This document shows, in pieces, positions 50,822 through 53,892 of a stretch of DNA of 63,917 bases. Source of the stretch: an uncultured Bacteroidales bacterium (GTDB lineage Bacteria; Bacteroidota; Bacteroidia; Bacteroidales; P3); assembly GCA_900319865.1 (NCBI GenBank), contig ONQD01000010.1, positions 1 to 63,917 on the forward strand, written 5' to 3'. The notes below the pieces were generated by a model, which ran no database searches, was not told the origin of the DNA, and was given only the letters and a program-made list of their open reading frames with translations. The translations under genes and the position numbers were made by a program. Every line of letters starts with the position of its first letter. Within the stretch, counting starts at the first letter, position 1.

Positions 50822-52102
50822 ATGCAAAGAGATACAGCAATTTTCGATCTCATCCAGAAGGAAAGAGAACGTCAGACCAAAGGCATTGAGCTCATTGCCT
50901 CTGAGAATTTTGTAAGCGACCAGGTGATGGAAGCCATGGGTTCCGTCATGACCAACAAATATGCTGAGGGTTATCCCGGAAAGCGTTACTATGGTGGTTG
51001 CCAGATTGTTGACCAGAGCGAGACTATCGCTATAGAGCGTGCAAAGAAGCTTTATGGCGCTTGCTGGGCCAATGTGCAGCCCCACAGCGGTGCACAGGCC
51101 AACATGGCAGTGTTTTTGGCCTGCCTCAACAGTGGCGACACCTTTATGGGCATGGACCTGAACCACGGCGGTCACCTCAGTCACGGCAGCCCCGTCAACT
51201 TCAGCGGTATTAACTACAAGGTGGTTGGATACCAGGTGAAGGAAGAGACCGGTATGGTTGACTACGACGATATGGAGAAGAAGGCTCTCGAGCATCATCC
51301 CAAGCTCATCATTGGCGGCGGTTCCGCCTATAGCCGTGACTGGGATTGGGAGCGTATGCGTGCCATCGCCGACAAGATTGGCGCCATCCTCATGGGCGAC
51401 ATCAGCCACCCCAGCGGCATGATTGCCAAGGGCTATCTGAACAATGCATTGAAGTATTGCCACATTGTTACCACCACTACCCACAAAACTCTTCGTGGAC
51501 CCCGCGGCGGTATGATTCTGATGGGTCAGGATTTCGACAATCCTTGGGGCAAGACCACTCCTAAGGGTGAGATTAAGAAGATGAGCGCTCTGCTCGACAG
51601 CGCTGTGTTCCCCGGCACCCAGGGTGGTCCTCTGGAGCATGTTATCGCTGCCAAGGCTGTGGCCTTCGGCGAGGCTCTTACCGACAGCTACGACCAGTAT
51701 ATCCAGCAGGTGATGAAGAACGCCAAAGTGATGTGCGAGGCATTCATCAACAAGGGTTACAAGGTTATCAGTGGCGGTACCGACAACCACCTTATGCTCA
51801 TCGACCTCCGCACCAAATTCCCCGAGTTGACCGGTAAGGAGGCTGAGAACGCATTGGTGGCAGCCGACATCACTGTGAACAAGAACATGGTTCCTTTCGA
51901 CAGCCGCAGCGCCTTCAAGACCAGCGGTCTGCGTGTCGGAACACCCGCTATCACCACCCGTGGCCTGAAGGAGGGCGACATGCAGGTGATTGTTGATATG
52001 ATCGACACCGTTCTCTGCAACCCGACAGACGAGGCCGTACGCGCCAAGATTACCGGACAGGTGAACGAGATGATGCAGAACCGTCCGCTTTTCGCTTGGT
52101 AG
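50822..52102 (+). CDS. glyA: Serine hydroxymethyltransferase
   Basis: The 426-aa product has the SHMT signatures [30 protein letters not shown] and the PLP lysine in [14 protein letters not shown], with normal length. It makes glycine and methylene-tetrahydrofolate from serine. It heads a neighbourhood concerned with one-carbon units and PLP (metK and pdxJ follow), and is closed by a strong terminator at 52116. Confidence 0.97.
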
Positions 52103-52115
52103 TCTGCTCATAACT

Positions 52116-52165
52116 AAAGCCCTTAAGACTCTCCCTGAAGTACCGGATAGTCTTAAGGGCTTTTT
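52116..52165 (+). terminator. Intrinsic terminator of glyA
   Basis: AAAGCCCTTAAGACT (52116-52130) is the exact complement of AGTCTTAAGGGCTTT (52149-52163), a 15-bp stem running into five T. Confidence 0.95.
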
Positions 52166-52194
52166 GTATACTTTCAAAAAAGGGAATCAGCGTC

Positions 52195-52356
52195 ATGACA
52201 ATGGAATTCGACAGCCGCAAGAGGGAGGGCAAGCCAGGCTGTTTATACAAGTTCTTTAAGGTTGCGATAACTATTGGGGTGTTTGTTATTGCGATGTTCT
52301 TTCTGCTCATGGTGATATTCCCTGCGGGGGGCTGGACTCAGCTATTTTGGAAATAG
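52195..52356 (+). CDS. Small membrane protein (53 aa)
   Basis: The frame reads MTMEFDSRKREGKPGCLYKF and then a single hydrophobic span (about residues 22-43, VAITIGVFVIAMFFLLMVIF), ending PAGGWTQLFWK. A basic stretch before the span favours the N-terminus inside. A second ATG stands 6 bases later. It lies between the glyA terminator and the metK promoter, so it needs its own promoter, which I do not see. The coding shape and charge pattern are convincing for a small membrane protein, but no family is known to me. Confidence 0.6.
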   Translation: MTMEFDSRKREGKPGCLYKFFKVAITIGVFVIAMFFLLMVIFPAGGWTQLFWK

Positions 52357-52490
52357 TCTTTCCTTTGAACAGAAGGCGTTGATTGTTGGTGCGGAGAGGA
52401 TTCGTTAATGCTTTTAAATGAAAATGAGGTGAGGTGCAGGTGGAAATTTGAGTATTTGGTAAGAAAAAATTTTATTTGAAAAAAAAAGTG

Positions 52491-52498
52491 TATCTTTG
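52491..52498 (+). promoter_or_regulatory. -7 box of metK
   Basis: TATCTTTG is an exact consensus match and would start the transcript near 52505, at the very start of the SAM-II-like aptamer. A canonical -33 TTTG at 19 bases is not present; one stands only 12 bases away (52475-52478). Confidence 0.65.
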
Positions 52499-52504
52499 CA
52501 CCCG

Positions 52505-52555
52505 CAAAGTGGATAGATTTGTAATGATTGCAACCACGTGAAAAAATGCTAAACA
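52505..52555 (+). promoter_or_regulatory. SAM-II-like riboswitch aptamer in the metK leader
   Basis: The order of conserved blocks matches the SAM-II class: a 5' arm GTGG (52509-52512), GATTTG (52516-52521), ATTGCAA (52527-52533), the complementary arm CCAC (52534-52537), GTGAAAAAA and the closing GCTAAA (52548-52553). Known SAM-II RNAs bind S-adenosylmethionine as an H-type pseudoknot and block translation. Its target here, SAM synthetase, is the natural feedback gene. It is separated from the ATG of a 22-codon ORF by only 3 bases. I did not verify the pseudoknot pairing. Confidence 0.8.
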
Positions 52556-52556
52556 C

Positions 52557-52625
52557 ATGATTTCCAATTTCACAATCACTTATTCTTACCACCTTTGCTT
52601 TTTTATGGTTTCATCAAAAAAGTAA
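52557..52625 (+). CDS. Upstream ORF / leader peptide of metK (22 aa)
   Basis: ATG 52557 stands right behind the aptamer core and opens a frame encoding [20 protein letters not shown] plus two lysines. The stop at 52623-52625 lies 7 bases before the metK ATG, in another frame. If ribosomes starting here are controlled by the riboswitch, metK could be translationally coupled to it. It could also be a chance frame, since the leader is A/T-rich. Confidence 0.4.
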
Positions 52626-52632
52626 AAGTATT

Positions 52633-53892
52633 ATGAGCTATTTCTTCACATCTGAATCTGTGTCGGAAGGACATCCCGACAAAGTTGCTGACCAAATTTC
52701 CGATTCCTTATTGGACGAGTTCCTGCGCCGGGACCCCAACAGCCATGTGGCCTGCGAAACGCTTGTTACCACCGGTTTGGTGGTTGTGAGTGGCGAGGTG
52801 ACGTGCGACGGCTATGTAGAAATACAGGATACCGTGCGCAACGTGATACGCAATATCGGCTATACCAAAGGCGAGTATATGTTTGAGGCCAACTCGTGCG
52901 GCATACTCTCCACCATTCATGGACAGAGCGGCGATATTAATCAGGGTGTGGACCGCAGTACCCTCGAAGAGCAGGGGGCAGGCGACCAAGGCATGATGTT
53001 TGGCTATGCCTGCAGCGAGACCCCGGAGTTGATGCCGCTGCCTATCACATTGGCACATATTTTTCTGCAAGAACTTACCAAGATACGCAAGGAGGGGCGG
53101 CAGATGACTTATTTGCGTCCTGACGCCAAGAGCCAGATTACAATAGAATACAACGACAACGGCAAGCCCCAGCGTATCGAGGCTATAGTGATTTCGACCC
53201 AGCACGATGATTTTGACGAGGAGTCCAAGATGCTGGCACGTATCAAGGAGGACGTGAGGGCGATTCTTATCCCCAGAGTATTGAACAGGTTGAGCGACGA
53301 GAACCGTGCTCTCTTTGCCAGCGAGGACTATAAACTATTTGTGAACCCCACAGGCAAGTTTGTGATAGGCGGTCCTCATGGCGATACGGGTTTGACGGGA
53401 CGCAAAATTATTGTTGACACCTATGGTGGCCGTGGAGCCCACGGTGGCGGTGCCTTCTCGGGCAAGGATGCCTCGAAGGTGGACCGCTCGGCAGCCTATG
53501 CCACACGCCACATTGCCAAGAACATGGTGGCAGCAGGAGTGTGCGACGAAGTGCTGGTGCAGGTAGCCTATGCCATCGGGGTGGCGGAGCCGGTAGGTTT
53601 GTATGTGAATACTTATGGCACTAGCCACGTTGAAATGAGCGACGGCGAGATAGCCCGGAGGATAGGGCAATTGTTCGATATGCGTCCGTATGCCATCATT
53701 GAACGCTTCGGGTTGAAGAACCCCATATATGCACCCACTGCCGCCTACGGCCATATAGGGCGCGACCCCTATAGTGCTCCTGTCACTCTCTACGATGCCG
53801 AGGGTAAGGAATACACCAAGACGGTGGATTTCTTTGCATGGGAGAAATTGGACTATGTGGAGCAAATACGCGAAGCTTTCGGTTTGAAATAG
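52633..53892 (+). CDS. metK: S-adenosylmethionine synthetase
   Basis: The 419-aa product starts [20 protein letters not shown] and carries [13 protein letters not shown] and the signature [20 protein letters not shown], with the GGGAFSGKD loop. It makes S-adenosylmethionine from methionine and ATP. It stands behind a SAM-II-like leader, which implies feedback by its product, and is followed directly by a DUF4491 gene and pdxJ. Confidence 0.96.

Follow-up and report, generated by a model that had tools for sequence, protein, structure and literature searches.

A SAM-II riboswitch leader upstream of Bacteroidales metK with a proposed three-strand translational platform

We analysed a 63,917-nt stretch of DNA from an uncultured Bacteroidales bacterium (assembly GCA_900319865.1, contig ONQD01000010.1; hereafter the window), in which a SAM-II aptamer precedes metK. 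Pairing patterns in this leader and its relatives suggest, with a probability that we would put at roughly 70%, that this leader works as a SAM-II riboswitch through a three-strand, translational OFF platform. The central strand, M, lies about 20-54 nt past the aptamer core; two partners complement it, the aptamer's 5′ half (strand P) and the A-rich initiation region of metK (strand S).

At low SAM, the aptamer would not hold, and P could capture M; the A-rich 3′ strand of the aptamer would then close an inner hairpin, leaving the metK start free. When SAM is plentiful, P would be locked into the aptamer and M released, and the released strand would fold onto S, hiding the metK start, with the consequence that less of the SAM-making enzyme would be synthesised. 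The aptamer match, the gene, the fit of M to both partners and its matching within lineages are observed, and from there we infer SAM binding, the direction of the switch and its action on translation.

Table 1. Features of the metK leader and their positions in the window
Feature	Position	Strand	Basis or description
-7-like promoter box TATCTTTG	52491..52498	+	Read from sequence
SAM-II aptamer (RF01726)	52503..52562	+	Rfam covariance-model match, 52.9 bits
Strand P (aptamer 5′ half)	52504..52530	+	Predicted pairing; M's partner in the proposed SAM-free state
Inner helix, SAM-free state	52538..52573	+	GTGAAA 52538-52543 with TTTCAC 52568-52573
22-codon ORF	52557..52625	+	ORF list; judged incidental
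Strand M	52573..52607	+	52573-52598 as the anti-aptamer part and 52583-52607 as the anti-start part
Strand S (metK start codon with its A-rich initiation region)	52612..52637	+	M's partner when SAM is bound, as proposed
metK, S-adenosylmethionine synthetase, 419 aa	52633..53892	+	Pfam PF00438, PF02772, PF02773

Results

A SAM-II aptamer precedes metK

The long-loop SAM-II model RF01726 matched the window over its full length (positions 1-60 of 60) with 52.9 bits against a gathering cut-off of 44 (E 5.2e-9 for 1.2 kb), a score far beyond chance, and it was the only Rfam family above cut-off in the whole window. The ordered blocks that a preliminary description had read from the leader are all present on the plus strand: GTGG (52509-52512), GATTTG (52516-52521), ATTGCAA (52527-52533), CCAC (52534-52537), GTGAAAAAA (52538-52546) and GCTAAA (52548-52553). 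The RF01726 alignment shows the P1 stem and the core GATTTG / TTGCAACC / AAAAAATGCTAAA. Across 15 selected close leaders, GATTTG, TTGCAACC and AATGCTAAA showed no variation (15/15). By eye, the loop AUG at 52524-52526 is complementary to CAU at 52556-52558, a pairing that may form pseudoknot P2. The alpha-proteobacterial model RF00521 stayed below threshold (12.3 bits, cut-off 36), and SAM-V was absent from the eight Rfam matches with E ≤ 10 in a covariance search of 52000-53200. A SAM-V aptamer, alone or in tandem with SAM-II, was rejected for want of a match there. The same description's identification of the element as SAM-II was borne out by the full-length match above the gathering cut-off; the aptamer is an ordinary SAM-II aptamer and presumably binds SAM.

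Two further observations concern the aptamer itself. Its conserved tail AAAAAATGCTAAA contains an ATG of its own: window positions 52546-52560 read ATG CTA AAC ACA TGA. This is a frame of 4 codons, and its TGA and the start of the 22-codon ORF overlap. In four leaders of the window's genus (L120, L122, L123 and L125) a hairpin-like insert lies between CCAC and the A-rich strand; these have a true long loop, and short-loop relatives exist in that one genus.

The product of the downstream gene has three Pfam S-AdoMet_synt domains, which confirms metK as the regulated gene that had been named. Among its nearest titled relatives, that of RUG12038, an uncultured Bacteroidetes bacterium, shows 81% identity, and those of Bacteroidales MAGs reach 77% (goat reticulum) and 71% (yak rectum). 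Upstream of metK lies glyA (SHMT) and downstream pdxJ. Between glyA and metK the window holds a 53-codon ORF with a hydrophobic stretch (52195-52356), for which Pfam gave nothing at E ≤ 0.001. An imperfect inverted repeat with a T-rich tail, 3′ of glyA at 52101-52180, was seen in sub-threshold Rfam alignments and is perhaps the glyA terminator, though a simple terminator scan did not report it.

The -7-like box described earlier ahead of the aptamer is present, and TAnnTTTG occurs at most 20 nt upstream of the RF01726 match in 121 of 130 family leaders. With the exact spacing of the -7 / -33 motif taken as usual, no TTTG is visible by eye at the -33 distance upstream of the window's box. The Bacteroides thetaiotaomicron promoter motif is described as having centres at -7 and -33 (PMC7366714). 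Transcription probably starts at 52502-52507; a start after 52506 would remove part of P.

The aptamer-metK arrangement is widespread in the family

RF01726 was found at E ≤ 0.001 in 155 of 190 family genomes (above cut-off in 149). At the level of the order it is present in 216 of 295 genomes at least 90% complete, five of them from the window's own family. Passages of PMC2864571 give the range of this model as Bacteroidetes and marine sequences. A subset of the RF01726 matches supplied 131 family loci, 31 taken with searches and 100 by coordinates. metK follows the aptamer in 130 of the 131, including every one of the 130 in which the motif located the aptamer; the remaining locus, L063, where the motif was not found, was excluded, and 129 of the 130 leaders are distinct. 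GCTAAA and metK are 79 nt apart in the window, 65 to 300 nt across the family and 3 to 146 nt in 50 leaders from the order sample and named relatives.

In three leaders (L047, L068 and L127) the spacer is 166-167 nt long and carries an insert, ACCCCACATGAGC..AATGTGGGG, that is rich in G+C and looks like a dispersed repeat. Genome G011 has two SAM-II matches (L039 and L042), each before metK on a different contig, and G066 has two that lie 2.9 kb apart, one of which is L105 (G066:C4); such pairs may reflect a second metK copy or a mixed assembly.

One spacer strand is complementary to both the aptamer and the metK start

In the window, P (52504-52530) and the anti-aptamer part of M (52573-52598) form 22 predicted pairs at -19.5 kcal/mol, and only 1 of 100 shuffles allowed P an equally good pairing with the spacer. 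The M:S hairpin (52583-52637) is predicted at -10.5 kcal/mol. Both helices use 52583-52598 and are therefore mutually exclusive. The inner helix of the proposed SAM-free state is predicted at -6.2 kcal/mol, and the last base of its TTTCAC also serves M. For a 12-nt segment fitting both partners, 2 of 60 shuffles were as good (p 0.02 with 200 shuffles); taken separately, the 12-nt P:M and M:S pairings reached only p 0.075 and 0.080.

The unconstrained minimum-energy fold of the window's leader is OFF-like (-24.3 kcal/mol, compared with -21.9 when P:M is enforced), and the expected number of P:M pairs in its free ensemble is only about four. The computed change in openness of the metK start is small, from 0.33 free to 0.25 masked. 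These energies, like those below, leave out the pseudoknot and co-transcriptional folding.

The plan is kept in other leaders with different letters. By eye, the three strands read GTAAAAG / CTTTTAC / GTAAAAG in L057, AAATGT..AGATTTG / CAAATCTGTTACATTT / AAATTGTAACA in L126, and CAAAATGTGGAAA / TTTCCATTTTGTT / AACAAAATG in L006, where the start codon is included. Five leaders (L105, L106, L108, L111 and L130) have a partly self-complementary insert in the M:S apical loop and retain the stem.

The pairings are matched within lineages

The leaders are too different for a single alignment. Of three same-genus groups, B had P:M in its consensus fold, and A and C had the aptamer stem with a pre-start hairpin. 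We compared each leader with its own dinucleotide shuffles, asking how well one 12-nt segment fits both P and S; 12 of the 130 family leaders, with spacers beyond the set length limits, dropped out. In 77 of the 118 remaining, at most 3 of 60 shuffles were as good, where about 1 in 15 leaders would be expected to do so. Among leaders from the order sample and named relatives the count was 13 of 47 (11 of 44 without L132-L134, which duplicate family loci), and in genus g6 it was 0 of 4.

After thinning to 49 unlike family leaders, 25 passed at p ≤ 0.05 (Fisher 6e-20), against 4 of 49 (Fisher 0.34) in a reversed-spacer control; the halves taken singly gave 11 of 49 for P:M and 14 of 49 for M:S. 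The leaders share ancestry, so that even after thinning these tests are not fully independent. P alone paired with the spacer at a mean z of -1.89, and in 68 of 130 leaders at most 5 of 100 shuffles were as good.

When spacers were swapped plainly between genera, the own spacer paired at -18.9 and foreign ones at -15.9 kcal/mol on average (n=127), and it beat every foreign one in 15 of 127 leaders. The own spacer had no advantage in four genera (g9, g11, g4 and g3) and one of just 0.1 kcal/mol in a fifth (g6), in part because the core of the aptamer is conserved and foreign spacers match it as well. We chose double-centred energies for the own-partner tests because they allow for a core common to all aptamers, and applied them to unlike family and order leaders with 5000 permutations.

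In each of the four own-partner tests (loop, P, start region and inner helix), 0 of 5000 permutations were as low. The aptamer loop prefers its own spacer (z -7.6, n=94; own value negative in 38 of 53 family leaders and 32 of 41 others), as does P (z -4.9, n=93; 34 of 52 in the family), for which 21 of 41 leaders outside the family, from the order sample and named relatives, were negative, that is, no preference. The A-rich 3′ strand of the aptamer likewise prefers its own post-aptamer sequence, the partner in the inner helix (z -5.9, n=94; own preferred in 69 of 94, made up of 40 of 53 family leaders and 29 of 41 others).

The metK start region prefers its own spacer as well (z -10.6), with own values negative in 78 of 94 leaders (47 of 53 in the family, 31 of 41 elsewhere). 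In a control on 87 other genes, each start tested with its upstream 69 nt, z was -1.8: 47 values were negative, and 192 of 5000 permutations reached as low a figure. The metK-start effect may thus be partly general, though only to a small degree. The spacers of the control genes, at 60% A+T, are richer in G+C than those of the metK leaders.

In ensemble folding with the aptamer masked, the metK start was unpaired at 0.36 on average; shuffled spacers gave 0.46, and 94 of 116 leaders were below theirs. The free-minus-masked difference in openness was 0.080 versus 0.041, and 73 of 116 leaders exceeded their shuffles. The start was also more paired than with shuffled spacers when the aptamer was left free (83 of 116).

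The 22-codon ORF is most likely incidental

The preliminary description had given the geometry of a 22-codon ORF between aptamer and gene correctly: its ATG (52557) lies three bases past GCTAAA, its TAA (52623-52625) ends 7 bases before the metK ATG (52633), and the first start codon behind the aptamer is accordingly its own and not that of metK. It had gone on to propose that this ORF couples translation to metK. The ORF is not beyond chance: about 5.5 kb contain 89 ORFs of at least 20 codons, and in 20 ATG-bearing genus leaders shuffled middles would already give 7.65 ORFs stopping at -10 to +5 of the metK start, against 11 observed. An ATG occurs within 12 nt of GCTAAA in 46 of 129 distinct family leaders, and an ORF from such an ATG stops at -15 to +5 of the metK start in 18 of 129. 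Within the window's own genus, 52 of 72 leaders keep the aptamer and metK without an ATG within 8 nt of GCTAAA, a case that the preliminary description had itself named as refuting the coupling; two of these, L098 and L097, are among the six leaders with the metK nearest to the window's.

In the 20 same-genus leaders that do have the ATG, the ORF runs from 5 codons (L102) to 36 (L111). Its stops are scattered from -69 to +4. Conserved blocks fall in all three frames: CTTTGC, present in 13 of 20, lies in frames 0, 1 and 2 in 4, 5 and 4 leaders, and CAATCA, present in 17 of 20, in 3, 11 and 3. Ungapped differences over codons 2-8 (517/565/587 by codon position) show no codon-position bias. These data on length, frame, stop and codon position argue for constraint on the RNA rather than on a coding sequence, and a conserved small ORF was rejected. 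The ORF is most likely a by-product of RNA pairing: its start coincides with the last aptamer positions, among them the CAU that perhaps closes the pseudoknot, and beyond these the ORF would be strands M and S read as codons. It is probably untranslated. Of the earlier reading, then, the aptamer, metK and the first start stand, and the coupling ORF is not supported, given its lack of conservation in same-genus leaders and of coding bias.

It is improbable, in our view, that the ORF is nonetheless gated by SAM, which would mask its AUG and, when absent, let translation reach metK by coupling or by melting M:S. The ATG does sit in the last aptamer positions after an A-rich stretch, the stop falls at -10 to +5 of the metK start in 11 of the 20 ATG-bearing leaders, and PMC11260477 offers the precedent of a switch-controlled translated leader. 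The missing ATG in most genus leaders, the variation just described and the 7.65 such stops already expected from shuffled middles speak against it.

The remaining explanations are improbable

A second account, just as improbable, is direct or stand-by control, in which the pseudoknot covers an A-rich landing site and the ribosome initiates at metK some 80 nt beyond it. It could appeal to Sinorhizobium meliloti metA, which needs the riboswitch SD and starts 74 nt downstream (PMC9373788), compared with 79 nt here. It predicts, however, a spacer unlinked to the metK start and aptamer loop, both of which are matched within lineages; the GCTAAA-metK distance varies over the ranges given above, and Bacteroidetes mRNAs lack SD sequences (PMC6847099).

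Transcription attenuation, with the alternative hairpins as terminator and antiterminator, is the least probable: it is common for proteobacterial SAM-II (PMC1273637, PMC2258182), and TTTTTT follows the P:M helix in the window and close relatives, but a simple scan of 52090-52720, covering short loops and G+C-rich stems only, found 0 intrinsic terminators, the logic is wrong for a metK terminator because the T-run trails the SAM-free-state helix, five or more consecutive T occur in 43 of 94 spacers, and the M:S hairpin extends into the metK start codon.

Discussion

SAM-II aptamers are well studied. The window's aptamer does not differ from the long-loop SAM-II of RF01726, which it resembles in the whole-model match, the core sequences and the SAM gene downstream. 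The three-strand anti-RBS / anti-anti-RBS logic of translational riboswitches is textbook, for example in TPP thiM, and is common to the window's leader. Unlike that class, the window would hide an A-rich, SD-free start region together with the start codon, and its competing strand would be the 5′ half of a SAM-II aptamer, loop included. What would be new here is the proposed SAM-II platform, which awaits probing; the aptamer and the three-strand logic are already known. Main-text passages of PMC2864571 describe no platform for the Bacteroidetes RF01726 form, and in the literature searched, which included few subscription papers and supplements, we found no description of a Bacteroidetes SAM-II expression platform.

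The premise of the preliminary description, that SAM-II masks the ribosome site of the regulated gene, was too narrow: many SAM-II RNAs bear putative terminators (PMC1273637, PMC2258182), and S. meliloti metA uses AUG2 as its start, 74 nt past the riboswitch SD (PMC9373788). In metA, as here, the AUG that first follows the aptamer does not serve as the start of the gene, which begins about 75-80 nt downstream; for metA, translational OFF by SAM is supported (PMC9373788). The two differ in that the in-riboswitch SD of metA is masked and acts at a distance, whereas the window's spacer apparently pairs with the aptamer and the metK start alternately. The same source reports alternative folding of post-aptamer sequence for S. 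meliloti metZ SAM-II, with a predicted terminator of a kind that the simple scan did not find in the window. A leader ORF between switch and gene also occurs in a B12 system, where the riboswitch controls a translated leader ORF with termination-reinitiation; that ppe2 ORF is reported as translated and needed (PMC11260477), whereas the window's ORF is unconserved.

A translational platform fits the phylum, because Bacteroidetes mRNAs lack SD sequences and upstream A and start-site structure tune their initiation (passages of PMC6847099). A broader reading, for which we see about even odds, is that Bacteroidales SAM-II mimics the metK start: P and S would be rivals for M, each lineage with a matching trio, and the hidden site could include the start codon; a short ORF gated by SAM might act as a second opener in the lineage of the window.

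For work on similar leaders the locus carries a caution, that short ORFs beside riboswitches can arise as by-products of RNA pairing. If the mimicry reading is true, it shows one way of building a translational switch in a phylum whose initiation does not use Shine-Dalgarno pairing, and the platform, if real, would show how translational riboswitches can operate in a major gut phylum.
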